NCBI GenBank assembly: GCA_958295785.1
Contig: OY282377.1
Span: 1,936,394-2,000,393 of the forward strand
Direction: 5' to 3'
Source: an uncultured Latescibacterota bacterium
GTDB taxonomy: Bacteria > Latescibacterota > UBA2968
DNA length: 64,000 bases
Shown here: positions 36,454 to 43,810 of the stretch, one piece after another
Layout of the letters: every line of letters starts with the position of its first letter
Numbering within the stretch: position 1 is the stretch's first letter
Made by a program: the position numbers and the translations under genes
The notes under the pieces: model-generated
Databases searched by the model: none
What the model saw: the letters and a program-made list of their open reading frames with translations, nothing else
What the model was told of the DNA's origin: nothing

Positions 36454-36468
36454 ACAAGGAGGATGATC

Positions 36469-37587
36469 GTGAAAAAGTACATTTTGATCGCGCTCTGTGC
36501 ATTGTGCGTGGGCCTGATGCCGAGCGATGGATTTGCCCAAGGGAGCGTCGCCACCGACGTGACCGACAATTTCGATGGCCGCACCCGCGAACTGGATCCG
36601 GTCGTTCCGGGGTTTGAAGAAGCCGCGCCCACGTTTATCAAGTCCGGGCAGGCCGGATTTGCATTCCTGTCCATTCCCACAGACGCTCGCACCGCAGCTT
36701 TGGGCGGGGCCGGCGTGGGGTTGATCGGCAGCGGGGCGTCCATGTTGTACAACCCGGGCGCGCTGGCCTTCATGGAGGGTCGGGAAGCGTATGTCACGTA
36801 CGTGGATTGGCTCGTGGATACCAAGAGCTACGTGGCGGGCGTTGCCGTCAATGTGCCGGGCAGAGGAACGTTCGGGCTTTCAATTGTGAACTACGATGCT
36901 GGCAATTTTAACCGCACGTCTATCGATCCAAACCCCGCGGGGCAAGGGTACAAAGACGAGGGCACGTTCACGACCAGCAATTACGCCATTTCCGGCGCTT
37001 ACGGGCTTAAAATTACGGACCGGTTTTCAGCAGGTGCCACCCTCAGATTTGCCCATCAGGACCTGGGTACTGGGAATATTTTTCTCGGTGGCAGCCAGCA
37101 GACAGTCGATAATTCCAAAAATGCCTTTGCCTTTGATCTCGGCACGTATTTCAATACGGGCTTCCGCAATACGGTGATGGCGATGAGCGTGCAAAACTTC
37201 AGCACGGAGGTCGTTTATCAGCGGGAGCAGTTTGAGTTGCCTAGGAATATCCGCTTGGGCTTGCTCGTCGATGTGATTTCGATGATGGGCAACACGCCCG
37301 TGCCGCATCACTTTGACTTGGCCTTAGACGTGAACAATCCCATTGATTTTGACGAGCGCATTCACATCGGCGCGGAATATACGTACCGCGCTGCCGGTGC
37401 CTCGTTTGGGTTTTCGCTGCGCGGTGGGTACAAGACCAACCACGATACAGAGAGTTTCTCCTTTGGTGGTGGGTTGCAGTTTAAGACCGAAGGCGGGCAG
37501 GGCGCGAAGGTGGATTATGCTTACAAGGCATTTAACACCGCTTTCTTCAGCGCGGTGCATATCCTCAGCGCTGCGGTCACTTTCTAA
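36469..37587 (+). CDS. PorV/PorQ family outer-membrane protein
   Basis: A 372-aa beta-barrel protein of the PorV/PorQ (UPF0164-like) family. PorV is the outer-membrane shuttle that receives type IX substrates in Bacteroidetes. A signal peptide ends near DGFA/Q, and the family's DARTAALGGAGVGLIGSGASMLYNPGALAF block follows. The start is decided by AAGGAGG at 36456-36462: the GTG at 36469 is six bases away, while an ATG at 36463 directly touches the Shine-Dalgarno. The last seven codons lie inside a 155-bp sequence duplicated at 38582. It probably works with the sorted protein encoded upstream. Confidence 0.85.
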   Translation: MKKYILIALCALCVGLMPSDGFAQGSVATDVTDNFDGRTRELDPVVPGFEEAAPTFIKSGQAGFAFLSIPTDARTAALGGAGVGLIGSGASMLYNPGALAFMEGREAYVTYVDWLVDTKSYVAGVAVNVPGRGTFGLSIVNYDAGNFNRTSIDPNPAGQGYKDEGTFTTSNYAISGAYGLKITDRFSAGATLRFAHQDLGTGNIFLGGSQQTVDNSKNAFAFDLGTYFNTGFRNTVMAMSVQNFSTEVVYQREQFELPRNIRLGLLVDVISMMGNTPVPHHFDLALDVNNPIDFDERIHIGAEYTYRAAGASFGFSLRGGYKTNHDTESFSFGGGLQFKTEGGQGAKVDYAYKAFNTAFFSAVHILSAAVTF

Positions 37588-37649
37588 CATCAGAGGTCGG
37601 GATACGGCGAGGATTTGCCCTTGCCTGCCCGCCCTGTGAACAGAAGCAC

Positions 37650-37685
37650 AACGGCGGAGGGACGCAATGTCCATCCGCCGTTTTT
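37650..37685 (+). terminator. Rho-independent terminator
   Basis: AACGGCGGA (37650-37658) and TCCGCCGTT (37674-37682), with inner GGAC/GTCC, followed by T5. It ends the receptor-secreted-PorV transcript. The same structure is repeated at 38664-38699. Confidence 0.88.
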
Positions 37686-37691
37686 CATGGC

Positions 37692-37720
37692 TTGACAGGG
37701 ATAAGGGGAAGGGGTATTGT
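37692..37720 (+). promoter_or_regulatory. Sigma-70-like promoter of the PIN cassette
   Basis: TTGACA (37692-37697), a 17-base spacer and TATTGT (37715-37720), about 35 bases before the first cassette gene. It is duplicated with the same hexamers and spacing at 38706-38734. Confidence 0.65.
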
Positions 37721-37756
37721 ATTTGTCCAATGCCCAAAAATCAAAGGAGACAGGTA

Positions 37757-38170
37757 ATGGGTATTTCGATCATTGATGTGTTGGAAACTGAGTGCGACGA
37801 ACTCGCGTTGGTGCAAGGACGACTCATGGAGGTGAACTGGGCTTGCGGCACAGCAGAGTTGCACCGCGAGCATGGGACGGTTGTGCCGTTGCGTTTTGAA
37901 CCTGCGCTAAACGACGCCATGCGTCGGCTGGCAATGCAGCACGTCGAGATCAGGGGGCGTGGTCGCTTTAACGACAATGACGAATGGGACATGGTTTGTG
38001 TCGATCAGATAACCGGCACGCGAGCATGGTCAAAGCCGTTCGACCTCGAGGCATTTCGCAACGATCCCAACCCAAAGGTATTCGACGCCAATAAACTGGT
38101 CGCCATTGACCTAACAGAAGAAGAGTGGGAGGCGTTTAACCGTGCGATATGCGAAGGACGCGATGCTTGA
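37757..38170 (+). CDS. Putative antitoxin partner of PIN toxin, unknown family
   Basis: A 137-aa protein that I do not recognise. The sequence is acidic and suggests a small beta-barrel first half (ALVQGRLMEVNWACGTAELHREHGTVVPLRF, VEIRGRGRFNDNDEWDMVCVDQIT), then a short helical C-terminus ending EEEWEAFNRAICEG. AAAGGAGA lies just ahead of the ATG at 37757; upstream in-frame ATGs fall within the promoter repeat and are rejected. The stop overlaps the start of the PIN gene (TGATG), the usual antitoxin-toxin order and coupling. The antitoxin role is therefore inferred from context only. Confidence 0.6.
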   Translation: MGISIIDVLETECDELALVQGRLMEVNWACGTAELHREHGTVVPLRFEPALNDAMRRLAMQHVEIRGRGRFNDNDEWDMVCVDQITGTRAWSKPFDLEAFRNDPNPKVFDANKLVAIDLTEEEWEAFNRAICEGRDA

Positions 38171-38583
38171 TGCTTACAATTTCTTCACCTATAGTTCTCG
38201 ATACCAGCGTCGTCTCAATATTCATGCGTCAAGAGGAGTCGGTTGCTTACTACCAAAATTGGACCCTGGGTCGACGTGCTGTCATTTCGTTTCAGACGCT
38301 GGAAGAGTTGTGGTTTGGCGCCTATAAAAGAGGCTGGGGCGACAGGCGGATAAATGATCTCAGGCAAAGTCTTGACCAATATGAGGTGGTGTGGCCCAAT
38401 TCTGATTTGGTGCGTATCTCTGCACACCTGCGTAGCGAACGGGAGCGTGCGGGACGCAGGCTAAATACAGGGGATGCGTGGATTGCCGCGACAGCACTGT
38501 TGTTAGAGTGTCCGCGCGCCTCAGATGATCGCGACTTCTCCAGCATTTCAGGCCTCGTGTTCATCACAGCACCGTCACCATAG
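38170..38583 (+). CDS. PIN-domain toxin, VapC-like
   Basis: A 137-aa PIN-domain protein, expected to be a Mg-dependent RNase. The acidic residues are in place: Asp11 in VLDTSVVSIF, Glu45 in QTLEELWFG, Asp102 in NTGDAWIAATALL, and Asp119/Asp122 in SDDRDFSSISGL. The start overlaps the preceding stop by one base (TGATG). The stop codon TAG at 38581-38583 runs into the second 155-bp repeat. Relatives of this type are VapC-like tRNA or rRNA nucleases; the target here cannot be told. Confidence 0.88.
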   Translation: MLTISSPIVLDTSVVSIFMRQEESVAYYQNWTLGRRAVISFQTLEELWFGAYKRGWGDRRINDLRQSLDQYEVVWPNSDLVRISAHLRSERERAGRRLNTGDAWIAATALLLECPRASDDRDFSSISGLVFITAPSP

Positions 38584-38735
38584 CGCTGCGGTCACTTTCT
38601 AACATCAGAGGCGGGATACGGCGAGGATTTGCCCTTGCCTGCCCGCCCTGTGAACAGAAGCACAACGGCGGAGGGACGCAATGTCCATCCGCCGTTTTTC
38701 ATGGCTTGACAGGTACGAGGGGAAGGGGTATTGTA
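38582..38735 (+). repeat. 155-bp direct repeat, copy 2
   Basis: Second copy of 37567-37721. It repeats the last codons of the PorV-like gene out of context, the terminator (38664-38699) and the promoter (38706-38734). Here the promoter points into the 3' end of the opposing TIR-like gene, so it would make antisense RNA. Confidence 0.92.
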
Positions 38736-38789
38736 CAAATATCGAAAATAGATGGAATTTTTACCAGGGATTTGCTTGAAGCCAGCCAA

Positions 38790-39359
38790 CTACAAGTCTT
38801 GATCGAGGTTTAGACTTGTACAAAGCTGTGGCAGATCAGTGAAAAAAAGAGCATATCGGTCAAATATCCTTGAACCCCCTGGAATAATGACATCTCTTTC
38901 GGTGGTCGCGCTTCTCAACCAGTCTCTGACAACCGTTATTGTCCTGCGAATATCGCCACTGTGTGATCTAATATCTTGCCCTGCAATATCAGAACAGTAT
39001 TGTTGATAACGATATGGCTCTTTATCGAGTATCAGACATATCTTCTCTCGTTGCCTACCTTGACCAAATCTTCGCGCTCCTAAAAAAACACCTAACTCCA
39101 ACGGCATGTTGAATCTTGGGAGTGCCGAAGTGGGGTCAATTTCTGTTCTCGAAATATCGTGAATGCCAAACTTACATTCTTGAATAATGTCAAAATTTTT
39201 TTCAATTCTTACTTGTGCGCTATCATCCACTTCAAGAGCACACCGCGCCTTAAACCCACAATCGTGTACTGCAAAAATGATCGCATCAAAAAGTGCAGCA
39301 TAACCCGGGTCAAAGGGGCAATTGAGAAAAACATTTTGTTCGTATTCGGAAGATGGCAT
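38790..39359 (-). CDS. TIR/nucleoside deoxyribosyltransferase-like protein
   Basis: A 189-aa protein. I recognise an uncharacterised bacterial family with the run NVFLNCPFDPGYAALFDAIIF (residues 9-29), CGFKARCALEVDD (34-46), a KFGIHDISRTE block (63-73) and LPRFNMPLELGVFLGAR (80-96), then SDIAGQDI and a conserved VRDWL. The alternating beta/alpha pattern and the Glu88 in MPLELG recall the TIR and nucleoside 2-deoxyribosyltransferase folds, where such a Glu attacks the N-glycosidic bond of nucleosides or NAD. That function is inference. AAAGG precedes the ATG. A 54-aa gene ends six bases upstream. The region is visibly AT-richer than its neighbours, suggesting transfer. Confidence 0.65.
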   Translation of the reverse strand: MPSSEYEQNVFLNCPFDPGYAALFDAIIFAVHDCGFKARCALEVDDSAQVRIEKNFDIIQECKFGIHDISRTEIDPTSALPRFNMPLELGVFLGARRFGQGRQREKICLILDKEPYRYQQYCSDIAGQDIRSHSGDIRRTITVVRDWLRSATTERDVIIPGGSRIFDRYALFFTDLPQLCTSLNLDQDL

Positions 39360-39365
39360 CGGCCT

Positions 39366-39530
39366 TTACTTGTTCGGATGCAGAGTGGGAGCACTTTTAA
39401 GTATCTCGTATTTTATCTTCAGTCCTGCTGGACGATTTTCTTTTAGTTTTTTGGCTACCACTTCAACCTGCTCTCGGCTTACAGAGACAGATTTCTGGGC
39501 GTCTTTAATCACTCTTCGGCTTTTAGCCAC
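39366..39530 (-). CDS. 54-aa basic protein, operon partner of the TIR-like gene
   Basis: A short gene starting at GTG (39530) behind a near-perfect ribosome-binding site, AGGAGGTGATT (39534-39544). It encodes a lysine-rich helical protein opening MAKSRRVIKDAQKSVSVSRE and continuing with VEVVAKKLKENRP. Its stop is six bases before the ATG of the TIR-like gene, so the two are almost certainly cotranslated. I do not recognise it. A small DNA-binding or antitoxin-like regulator is possible but unproven. Confidence 0.65.
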   Translation of the reverse strand: MAKSRRVIKDAQKSVSVSREQVEVVAKKLKENRPAGLKIKYEILKSAPTLHPNK

Positions 39531-39717
39531 GGCAATCACCTCCTAATTTTTTGAAATATCAAAAGCGGATTTTTCAAATATACCTCTAAATTCTTATTCA
39601 TCAAGTTCAATCACCCTTCAATTTTGCCAAATTTTTTGGGGAATTACATACTTGCCAACCCTAACCTTTCTTGTTATATTTATCCAAGTTACAAGTTACG
39701 AATGAACAAGGGGGTGT

Positions 39718-40662
39718 ATGATGGCAAAGCAGCTTAGTTTCGTCGCGTTCACACAGAAGTTTGCCACGCCTGAAGCGTGTATTTTGCACCTTGAAAAGAT
39801 CCGCTTTAAGGATGGCGCGTCTTGTCCGCATTGTGGTAGTATGGGAAAAATCTATCGTCGTTCTGATTTGGCGTATAGGTGCTCGGATTGTGGGCGTAAT
39901 TTTCATATGATTTACGGAACGATGTTTGGCAAGTCTAAAATCAAGATGTTGCCTAAATGGTTCGCGGCAATATGGATTGAAACGAACCACTCAAAAGGTA
40001 TTTCAAGCGTTCAGTTGGCAAAAATGATCGGTACAACGCAAAAGACCGCTTGGTTTATGCTTCAAAGAATACGAAACGCTTTTGGCAACAAAGACGGTGA
40101 TGATGATGATTTTCTGTCTGGTATCGTTGAAATTGATGAAACCTACATCGGTGGGAAAGAAAAGAACAAACATAAATCCAAAAAGTTGAATGCGGGTCGC
40201 GGAACAGGAGGTAAATCGGTTGCTTTCGGAATGCGGGAAAAAGGGGAAGATGGTGAGGCAATGGCGGTTCATGTACAGGACGCAAAAGTGGCAACATGAC
40301 ACGAGAAGATGTTGAACCGGGTATTGACGGGCGCAACTATTCATGCAGACGAGAACCGCGCATACGGCGCATTGAGGGATGATTACGAAGTGGAACAAAT
40401 CAATCATTGTGCCGACGAATATGAACGCGATGGGGTCCATACAAACGCCATTGAGAGTTTGTGGGCACGGGTTAAGCGTGTCTATATGGGTATTCATCAC
40501 CACTGGTCAGACAAACACATGCAAAAGTACCTGAATGCTTGCGTGTTTCGCATCAATCGAAAAAAGGTTGATACCTTAAGTCGTGTTGATGAGATGTTGA
40601 ATATGGCGATGGGCGCCCGGTTGACTTACAAGCAACTTATAGCCAGTGAGGCGGTTGCATGA
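39718..40662 (+). pseudogene. IS1595 (ISXO2-like) transposase, nonsense-interrupted
   Basis: About 314 codons in one frame. The N-terminal zinc-ribbon (CPHCGSMGK...YRCSDCG, residues about 40-61) is followed by the DDE-type core IVEIDETYIGGKEKNKH, then HADENRAYGAL and HTNAIESLWARVKR, the usual acidic triad region of ISXO2-like transposases. A TGA at 40297-40299 stops translation after DAKVAT, and reading resumes in the same frame with no other lesion. The IS ends are intact, so the copy is recent but probably unable to move itself. AGGGGG lies just before the ATGATG start. Confidence 0.9.
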
Positions 40663-40869
40663 ACAACCTTTATGGCACAAGCGGGCGATATGGAAGTCAA
40701 CGGGACATCTTATCCACGCATGCAAATGTGATCCGTTCCTGAAAGACGCGAAGGAAAACGTTTTGAAACGTTAGATGTTAGGGGCAGGCATGCCCAAAAT
40801 CAGAGGTCGCTTGCATTCAACACCAAAAACCCGGGATTACTTTAACAAGAAGATTTAGGTTGTCAAGTA

Positions 40870-40875
40870 TATAAT
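40870..40875 (+). promoter_or_regulatory. TATAAT -10-like box in the IS right end
   Basis: The right terminal repeat reads GTATATAATTCCC outward, whereas the matching left end has GTATGTAATTCCC on its outward strand. The single change creates TATAAT 29 bases before the GTG start of the GWxTD gene. No good -35 is visible at 16-18 bases, so an outward promoter is only a possibility. Confidence 0.35.
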
Positions 40876-40903
40876 TCCCATTTTTTGGAAAGGGACGCGA
40901 TAG

Positions 40904-43810
40904 GTGAAAATTCTCCAACTCATATCCATGCTGCTTTGCGTTTTTTGCGGCACAATGCCCGCGGAGGGCGCGACGGTCTTGCTTGAGGATGGCACCGTGC
41001 TCAAGGGCGAGATTGTGTCCGAATCAGAGACAGAGGTCGTGATCAAGACGTCGATGGGTGAACTCAAGGTGGCGAAGTCGCTCATTAAGATGATAGAACA
41101 ACCCTCGCGCAAGGTCACAATTTTGCTCGCGGATGGCACGGTGCTCAAGGGCGAGATTGTATCCGAATCGGAAACAGAAGTCGCAATCGAGACGTCTATC
41201 GGCGAATTGCGGGTGGAACGGACGCTCATCAAAATGATCGAGCGAGAAGGGGAAGCGCGAGAGGCCGATAGGCAGATCGCCGAAGCGGAATTGCAAGCGA
41301 GTTTTGGGGAATTTGAAGATCAAGTGGCGGGTTTGATTTTGAAAGAGGTGGCCGATGCGGATACGGCTGCTTTTTACAAGGCATTGGATCGCAAAGCCAA
41401 AGGGCCATTTCTGGCGCGGTTTTGGCGGGGGCGCAATCCGCTGGTGCTGAAGTACTATTACGATTACCACTTTGGACGCCGCCATGTGACCGTATCCGAT
41501 GCGTATTTTGAGCGCGGGGATCTGATCCCCAAAAAATACACCACCCGAGCGCAGGCCCCAGATGAAAAGCAAGTCGCCGAGGCCGCCCGCATTTGCGACC
41601 GCATGCTGATTCTACACGCAGACGATGCGGTGGCGATGTGCGCGCTGGGCTATCTGCGCTTGGAACGAGACGATGTGAAGGTGGCCGAAGCACTCTTCTT
41701 GGACGCGATTAAAAAAAACAAAAAGTTCGTGGAAGCGCGCAATGGGCGGGCACTCGCGGCGTTGAAGATGCCGGGGCAAAAATCGCGGGCATTGCGCTTG
41801 TTTCGGGAAACCTGCGCGATGGACGAAAATTATGCGGCGGCCCACTACAATCTGGGGATGTGCCATCTGGCGATGGTGGGCATGGATCGCGTGGATCTGG
41901 ATTACTATTTTGGCAAGGTGACAGAGCGTTTTCCCAACCACTATGACGCCTATTTCAAGTTGGGGGTGTTTTACGAGTCCCTGCACTATTACGACAAGGC
42001 GATGAAAGCCTATTCGCGTCAGGTGGCGGTGAATCCCTCTCATCCCTTGACGCCTGCACGCTTGGCGCATGTGGCGATGCGCCTGAAAGCCGCGGGCGAG
42101 GAAACCTACAGCTTGGACGAATTGCAGGAAATGGCAAAGACAAAGCCGAAAGACTATCTGCCCCTGCTGGCGCAGACTTGTATTGAACGCGGGGATTTTG
42201 CCCAGGCGCAGGCGGCTTTTGGACGCTATTTTCAGTTTTTGGACCCGACGGAACGGGCGTATTACCAAGCCCTGTCGCTGGTGGCCCCCGCCGAAGTGCT
42301 GTCCAAGATGAAGGGCGCGTTTGGGCAGTCCCTGTCCCGGCTTCGGAAAGTTTTTTGGCTGGAGGTCGATCCCACGCCGACCACGCCGGTGAATGAACGC
42401 CGCGTGGAGCATTACCGTCGGGTGTATTTCGCGCGCTCAAATTTTGCCGAAGGCCTGGAGGAATGGCACGGCAGAGGGTGGGATCGCCGAGGCGATGTGT
42501 ACATTCGCTTGGGGCATCCCGACCATCGGAGTTGGTCGGATTATCTGGTGTTCGAGACCGACGAAAAGGTGGCGAAAGTAAAGAACCGCCTGAATATGAT
42601 CGCCGCAACCGCCTTGGATGAAGTGTTGCCGACCAAGCATGTACACGGGCAGTCGAGCGCGTCTTATGGCTATGGCGCCGGCCCCGAGACCGCCGACTTG
42701 CGGGGCGTGCCGACTTTTCCGGTGCCGCGCAGGCGCAGTGTGATGCGCGATGGATCGGAGTTGGGTTACAAGTGGGAATCGTGGATTTACGCTGAAATCG
42801 GCGGGGGAATCGAGATCACATTTTTGGATCCCACGGGCAGCGGTTTTTTTGATTTCGCGCCCATTCCCCCCAATTCGCCCAACCACGCGCTGTGGTCTCG
42901 CCTCGCGCCCGAAAGGGTGGTCGCCCAAGTCGTCAACCGCACGCCTTCGGTTTATCGGCATGACTACGGCGGCGACCCCATGGACTTTTACATGTACGCG
43001 GCGAATTTCCGCGCCTCCGAGCAAGAGGCCGATACGAATGTGGAAGTGTATATGGGCGTGCCCATCGCGGCATTGACCCCCGCGTCTCAAGGCGGAAAGT
43101 CTTACGCGATGCTCAACCGAGAGGTCGTGGTCTATGACCGATCCCTAAAGCCGGTTTTTCGAGACAGCGCGCAGGTGACAAAAGCCGTAAACGGGCAGGT
43201 GGAAAAGGAAATGCTGATGGTGGATCAGGTACGCGCTTCCCTGCCTCCGGGGCAATACTTCTTGACCGCTCAGGTGCGCGACCCCATCAGCCGAAAAATT
43301 CAGGCGCACAAGATGTATGTCACCGTGCCATCTTTCAGCGGTGACGCGCTATCGTTGAGCGATTTGGAATTGGCCGGGCAGATTGTCGAGGAAAAAGAAT
43401 CCACGCCGGCCGGGAAATTTCAAAAGGGTGACTTGCAAGTGGTGCCCCTGCCGTCCAAAACCTTTGCGAAGGCGCAGGCGGTTTATCTCTATTACGAAGT
43501 CTATAACTTGACTCGAGATGCGTTTGGGCAAACCCGCTACCGCGTCGAATACGCGCTTACAGGCGTGCAGAGCGCGGGTTCTCGCCTGATTCGAGGGCTG
43601 GGCAAATTGTTGGGCCAAACCCCGCAAGCCGATGGCGTGCAGATTTCTTATGAGCATACCGGAACGACCACATGGGAACCCCTCTACATCGCGCTGGACG
43701 TGCCGCAAGATAGCGAAGAACACTTGGAAATCGAGGTGGTGGTAACGGATTTGAACGCCCCGAACCAGCCCATTGTACGCAAGCGGGTTCAGTTTGCGGT
43801 GGGCAATTGA
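40904..43810 (+). CDS. GWxTD-domain TPR protein (second copy)
   Basis: A 968-aa exported protein starting at GTG (SD GGAAAGGGAC). Signal peptide about 1-22. Two tandem 47-residue modules follow (TVLLEDGTVLKGEIVSESET and ILLADGTVLKGEIVSESET), an internal duplication with SHOCT/DUF-like beta strands. TPR-like repeats (about 200-440) precede the GWxTD domain (VFWLEVDPTPTTPVNERRVEHYRRV, GWDRRGDVYIRLGHP at 525-539). The C-terminus parallels that of the copy at 27136, including VVPLPSKTF and YYEVYNLTRDAFGQTRYRV. Its promoter region was hit by an IS1595 insertion. Confidence 0.82.
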   Translation: MKILQLISMLLCVFCGTMPAEGATVLLEDGTVLKGEIVSESETEVVIKTSMGELKVAKSLIKMIEQPSRKVTILLADGTVLKGEIVSESETEVAIETSIGELRVERTLIKMIEREGEAREADRQIAEAELQASFGEFEDQVAGLILKEVADADTAAFYKALDRKAKGPFLARFWRGRNPLVLKYYYDYHFGRRHVTVSDAYFERGDLIPKKYTTRAQAPDEKQVAEAARICDRMLILHADDAVAMCALGYLRLERDDVKVAEALFLDAIKKNKKFVEARNGRALAALKMPGQKSRALRLFRETCAMDENYAAAHYNLGMCHLAMVGMDRVDLDYYFGKVTERFPNHYDAYFKLGVFYESLHYYDKAMKAYSRQVAVNPSHPLTPARLAHVAMRLKAAGEETYSLDELQEMAKTKPKDYLPLLAQTCIERGDFAQAQAAFGRYFQFLDPTERAYYQALSLVAPAEVLSKMKGAFGQSLSRLRKVFWLEVDPTPTTPVNERRVEHYRRVYFARSNFAEGLEEWHGRGWDRRGDVYIRLGHPDHRSWSDYLVFETDEKVAKVKNRLNMIAATALDEVLPTKHVHGQSSASYGYGAGPETADLRGVPTFPVPRRRSVMRDGSELGYKWESWIYAEIGGGIEITFLDPTGSGFFDFAPIPPNSPNHALWSRLAPERVVAQVVNRTPSVYRHDYGGDPMDFYMYAANFRASEQEADTNVEVYMGVPIAALTPASQGGKSYAMLNREVVVYDRSLKPVFRDSAQVTKAVNGQVEKEMLMVDQVRASLPPGQYFLTAQVRDPISRKIQAHKMYVTVPSFSGDALSLSDLELAGQIVEEKESTPAGKFQKGDLQVVPLPSKTFAKAQAVYLYYEVYNLTRDAFGQTRYRVEYALTGVQSAGSRLIRGLGKLLGQTPQADGVQISYEHTGTTTWEPLYIALDVPQDSEEHLEIEVVVTDLNAPNQPIVRKRVQFAVGN

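Follow-up and report, generated by a model that had tools for sequence, protein, structure and literature searches.

A candidate modular two-gene unit pairing a predicted TIR/NDT-like effector with exchangeable motif-bearing partners

NDT-like effectors make up one effector gene class of retrons (PMC12548924), and effector-associated domains are small exchangeable adaptors, present as homotypic copies on both proteins, that link effectors to varied cores (Kaur 2020, PMC7159879). Here we describe a two-gene unit from an uncultured Latescibacterota bacterium, located in a stretch of 64,000 nucleotides (nt) (contig OY282377.1 of assembly GCA_958295785.1, positions 1,936,394 to 2,000,393) that we call the window. 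It encodes a basic protein of 54 amino acids (aa) followed by a predicted TIR/NDT-like effector. As in retrons with an NDT-like effector, a toxic effector of this type would be under the control of a partner, but a short protein motif takes the place of the partner complex; there is no reverse transcriptase among the neighboring open reading frames (ORFs) and no Rfam match in 37000-41500. The motif resembles effector-associated domains as a small exchangeable adaptor joining an effector to varied partners and differs in being found on the partner only, since a hidden Markov model (HMM) of the motif matches partner ORFs and not effector ORFs. CBASS with TIR effectors (CAP12) is similar in that some partners are CD-NTases and some effector relatives match PF10137 weakly, whereas these units have no STING or SAVED receptor, carry the putative docking motif on the CD-NTase, and mostly have no CD-NTase at all. 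The TIR/NDT N-glycosidase superfamily (DRHyd, DNPH1, MilB) has the fold (Z of 12-14) and the Asp...Glu-Leu-Gly motif in common with the effector, but the window protein has no match among family models and carries its own signature (NCPFD...GIHDISR...RFNMPLELG) and its own C-terminal helices. Finally, the DUF2188-only partner L008 of a distant effector clade matches the PADLOC candidate PDC-S16 (2e-34); PADLOC, however, has this small protein as a single-gene candidate, and the effector beside L008 has no model. The open-paper literature held nothing on DUF2188 or PDC-S16 in defense, an absence that is no proof of novelty.

We put at about even the chance that the two genes form a modular two-component unit, in which an N-glycosidase effector is bound and controlled by the motif-bearing partner. 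The features of the window unit are as follows.

39366..39530, minus strand: 54-aa basic partner; start GTG 39530, stop 39366-39368; motif AKSRRVIKDAQKSVSVSREQVEVVAKKLKENRP near the N terminus
39535..39544, minus strand: Shine-Dalgarno sequence AGGAGGTGAT of the small gene, from sequence reading
38790..39359, minus strand: TIR/NDT-like effector ORF, 189 aa, truncated; ATG 39359; Asp68 and Glu88 in the predicted active-site motif
39540..39610, minus strand: short leader (ttgat(g/a)aat...) kept in relatives L002 and L003, with unrelated sequence beyond; upstream limit of the shared cassette

An initial annotation of this DNA had described an AT-rich two-gene unit whose small gene has a GTG start and a strong ribosome-binding site and ends six bases before the effector. 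This is borne out by the composition (G+C content of 40.5% versus 56.0% for the window), by AGGAGGTGAT, and by the coordinates, which place both genes on the minus strand with six bases between the small gene stop and the effector ATG. Within the window, AGGAGGTGA plus a start codon occurs once, as the Shine-Dalgarno sequence of the small gene. A 57-aa alternative (GTG 39539) was rejected, as its start falls inside the Shine-Dalgarno sequence and relatives begin at the codon equivalent to 39530. The small protein has a net charge of +9 and an isoelectric point of 10.4, compared with an isoelectric point of 5.1 for the effector. Ratios of nonsynonymous to synonymous substitution (dN/dS) against L002/L003 were 0.23-0.25 for the small gene and 0.11-0.12 for the effector, so both are under purifying selection. 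Because of this selection, and because the pairing recurs across phyla, the unit is more than a chance arrangement.

Predicted fold and distribution of the effector

The blocks NCPFDPGY, IHDIS, and FNMPLELG with E88, named in the initial annotation, are all present in the effector, and structure prediction agrees with the TIR/NDT-like fold and Glu pocket proposed there. The AlphaFold model (75-row alignment) has a predicted local distance difference test score (pLDDT) of 90.3 and a flavodoxin-like alpha/beta fold. VIA-align Z scores were 14.4 for DNPH1, 13.5 for the SPARTA TIR, 13.1 for the RUN1 TIR, and 12.4 for AbTir and MilB; Foldseek results were weak (best E of 7e-4), with many flavodoxin-like folds. 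D68 and E88, the latter in an E-L-G motif, are invariant across 75 effector sequences and probably sit where the catalytic pair of NDT/DNPH1 would be expected, an equivalence to DNPH1/MilB residues drawn from motif position and not from superposed coordinates. The model thus supports the assignment of the effector to a TIR/NDT-superfamily fold with a conserved Glu.

The window effector gave no match in Pfam, NCBIfam, PADLOC, or PHROGs, nothing significant against PDB by sequence, and no match above the curated cut-off to Pfam TIR, ThsB, CAP12, or PADLOC models. Six of 17 relatives weakly match PF10137 (CAP12/Pycsar TIR; best E of 0.004); in L098, an effector relative joined to an FGE-sulfatase domain, the score of 14.8 bits falls below the cut-off of 24.7. 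Relatives occupy at least 567 loci in GTDB contigs from more than a dozen phyla, and their spread is patchy: 12/64 genomes of Latescibacterota, 44/84 of Poribacteria (phylum of G064), and 16/297 of Acidobacteria (phylum of G068). Relatives are also present on 17 plasmids, all alphaproteobacterial. Poribacteria genomes with intact effector copies also contain numerous broken or split ones, several of which have a single in-frame stop.

A shared motif on exchangeable partners

Upstream of most effector relatives lies a small basic ORF that by sequence reading has its own ribosome-binding site, separated from the effector by anything from a small overlap to tens of bases. Many of these partners have in common a basic motif of ~35 aa, R-x-[IV]-K-x-P-P-K-x-G-x-V-x-R-x-x-I-x-x-A-V-x-x-V-x-x-x-R. 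Its short length (40-90 aa) and basic character explain why the partner was overlooked. In the window the motif HMM matches one ORF, the small gene (5.6e-8), which is possibly among the training rows. Trained on upstream genes only and with no row from Poribacteria, the HMM recognizes downstream partner genes in that phylum. It matched 0/2,760 composition shuffles, so the matches do not stem from low-complexity basic composition, and it matched 0/4,622 control ORFs from 20 random regions. At loci fetched through the effector, every match at E<=0.01 adjoins an effector or effector fragment; the 16 remaining matches are from loci fetched through the motif itself. Co-occurrence of effector and motif in 81 Poribacteria genomes was 40/3/4/34 (Fisher P of 6e-15).

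Among 128 full-length effectors, non-redundant at 95%, 102 have a same-strand partner recognized by HMM (84 with the motif, 18 with DUF2188 only). Another 20 were assigned partners by eye, as a judgment and not a score (15 motif variants and 5 helix-turn-helix [HTH]-like small basic proteins), and 6 intact effectors have none. The initial annotation had suggested a conserved small upstream gene. The homologue search supports a partner class that is conserved and paired across phyla; what did not hold is the idea of one protein, as the motif sits on interchangeable proteins. On a FastTree effector tree with many weakly supported forks, partner type switches at least 19 times, and the downstream position of the partner is a single change. 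The effectors of L029 and L039 are near identical, yet only the former has a CD-NTase partner; the latter has a plain motif protein. Partners in which the motif is fused to a further module are as follows.

Motif plus DUF2188 (PF09954): L030, L034, L045, L046, L102
Motif plus GIY-YIG-like module: L042, L048, L052, L057, L077; weak, the Pfam match of L077 being just below the cut-off and L052/L057 having none
Motif plus GRDAKTGRF module: L040, L054, L064
Motif plus DncV-like CD-NTase: L029, L137, L140, L151, L185; PADLOC Cyclase (E to 1e-131) and PF21654
Motif plus ThsB-like TIR and winged helix: L146; ThsB_TIR (1e-22)
Motif plus conserved ~430-610-aa protein beside the effector: L059:5605-6885, L073:5605-7434, L076:5612-7426; no significant Pfam or PADLOC match

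At the distant effectors L170-L172, L179, and L134, a small basic HTH-like partner (PTxEEFxxxLGLSKxR) replaces the motif or DUF2188. An 805-aa ORF (L222:921-3335, minus strand) that looks CAP12/TIR-like by eye lies downstream of an orphan motif-GIY gene; this motif may there serve another kind of effector.

Proposed mechanism and competing explanations

In the proposed mechanism, the large protein would be a TIR/NDT-superfamily N-glycosidase that uses Glu88 as its nucleophile and whose substrate is most likely NAD+ or a nucleotide akin to it. The small partner would bind the effector via the ~35-aa motif, predicted as a short strand and an amphipathic helix, and control it, while its second module would sense the trigger and set the timing. 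For partners consisting of the motif and a basic tail, as in the window, nucleic acid is a possible trigger; for those with DUF2188, GIY-YIG-like, CD-NTase, or ThsB-TIR modules, sensing of infection would lead to metabolite depletion or abortive growth arrest. NAD+ as the substrate, infection as the trigger, inhibition or activation by the partner, and its physical docking on the modeled effector are what we infer. CD-NTases and ThsB-TIR proteins are signal-makers of known immune systems. Because the motif is fused to both, we favor immunity and tentatively propose an undescribed, widespread modular immune system, in which a single-domain TIR/NDT effector would be joined through the motif to any of several exchangeable proteins that sense or signal (a basic nucleic-acid binder, a DUF2188, GIY-YIG-like, CD-NTase, or ThsB-TIR protein, or the ~600-aa protein) and be controlled by direct protein contact in place of a second-messenger receptor. 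If this is true, a family without any Pfam, NCBIfam, PADLOC, or PHROGs model becomes a testable defense or toxin-antitoxin class, signal-making domains exchanged on one docking motif exemplify the rewiring of immune sensors and effectors, and DUF2188 gains a first function to test.

In L061 the effector continues the reading frame of its small gene, which allowed a read-through to be modeled, with the stop read as Gly, on ~15 paired rows. The motif helix block, past a disordered linker (pLDDT of <50), reached a pLDDT of ~94. DSSP assigned a bridge at motif residue 6; apart from this, residue 272 at the effector C terminus is the sole strand residue left unpaired. This hints that the motif docks at the C-terminal region, which is lost from the window copy as follows.

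38797..38798, minus strand: junction where 28 nt present in L002/L003 are missing, which shifts the frame and brings in an early TAG (38790-38792)
38761..38796, minus strand: out-of-frame remnant of the conserved C terminus (LVVGWLQANPW), from comparison with L002/L003 and direct reading

The deletion, a feature that the initial annotation had missed, was found against L002/L003, whose effectors are 83% identical to that of the window. It shifts the frame into a stop, leaving 189 aa where other relatives have ~200-215 aa, and removes a C terminus (...DELTFNDY..V..WL) present in nearly all full-length relatives. The window copy may consequently be uncoupled or inactive, and because it is truncated other copies would be better suited to testing. 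There is close to an even chance that the unit has recently become a pseudogene in this genome and that only its relatives are functional. The loss of the conserved end, its out-of-frame remnant, and the placement of the motif strand at that end in the read-through model of a relative point this way, against which the remaining effector core has a confident predicted fold, the small gene is intact, dN/dS is still low across the remaining effector codons, and the deletion might be a sequencing error.

Several further observations weigh against modular immunity besides the truncation. Effector activity, partner interaction, and phage defense are predictions from sequences and models, and the docking model was assessed on its few paired rows without predicted aligned error or coordinates, where helix confidence alone is no proof. 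The CD-NTase and ThsB fusions are found solely in Poribacteria. Viral contigs hold few effector copies (11 loci with an alignment as query, none with the single window protein), and a search of phage records found no relative. In a comparison bearing on clustering in defense islands, the PADLOC families matched at E<=1e-10 numbered 115 for 120 effector-flanking ORFs versus 40 for 114 random ORFs; as these counts are of families and not per ORF, the control genomes are only partly matched, and several matches are to generic helicases or methyltransferases, the comparison counts neither for nor against such clustering.

A type II toxin-antitoxin system, in which the motif would neutralize a toxin, the variable domain would be a DNA-binding autoregulator, and persistence by addiction would leave phage defense as at most a side effect, is unlikely in our judgment. 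It stays alive because pairing is near obligate, with effectors almost never found without a partner while orphan motif genes exist, and because a third partner type is HTH-like. It also fits the arrangement in one operon of a small gene upstream of a larger one, with an overlap or a gap of a few bases between them, as well as the highly basic partner and acidic effector, the patchy spread, the plasmids, and the many broken copies. Yet CD-NTase and ThsB-TIR are signal-making enzymes and not DNA-binding regulators, and GIY-YIG-like and DUF2188 domains are no known repressors. Should the partner act as a brake, the toxin-antitoxin and immune readings would overlap, as a brake with a sensor is both. 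That the units are small CBASS operons, with the effector activated by the cyclic nucleotide of a CD-NTase, is very improbable: motif-CD-NTase proteins occur at five distinct Poribacteria loci, four of them adjoining a full-length effector, and there is a distant resemblance to the CAP12 TIR, but a CD-NTase is present in just 4/128 non-redundant units, the effector is single-domain, and the L039 effector makes do with a plain motif protein. None of the ORFs neighboring the window unit is a CD-NTase, and the two DncV-like genes of this genome are both elsewhere. Very improbable, too, is a salvage role as a housekeeping nucleotide hydrolase (DNPH1/NDT-like) beside a small neighbor unrelated to it. 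DNPH1 is indeed the top structural neighbor, but the patchy distribution in Latescibacterota and Acidobacteria, the empty sites in congeners, and the strict co-occurrence with a motif partner speak against it.

Genomic setting

In 3/11 genomes of the genus (G000, G032, and G033), the unit has a PorV-like outer-membrane gene (36463-37587) on one side and a GWxTD-type gene (40904-43810) on the other. In other congeners (L255-L260, L264), the two flanking genes are near each other, and no effector was detected in the interval. Because the effector (82%) and the neighboring GWxTD gene (80%) diverge in parallel, presence of the unit in the common ancestor with later losses is plausible, with transfer as the alternative. 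An IS1595-family transposase (39718-40662), split by a stop into ORFs 39718-40299 and 40309-40662, adjoins the small gene and was not detected at this site in L252/L253. A REP-like mobile element reading of a 124-nt repeat beside the unit, which forms part of the longer direct repeat described next, was dropped, since the genome holds just two copies. A direct repeat of ~154 nt (98-100%), which holds a terminator-like palindrome, is found at 37567-37721 and 38582-38735, on either side of the gene for a PIN-domain toxin (38149-38583) and the 167-aa neighbor of that gene. This repeat is a duplication from the insertion of the PIN toxin/167-aa gene pair beside the PorV-like gene.
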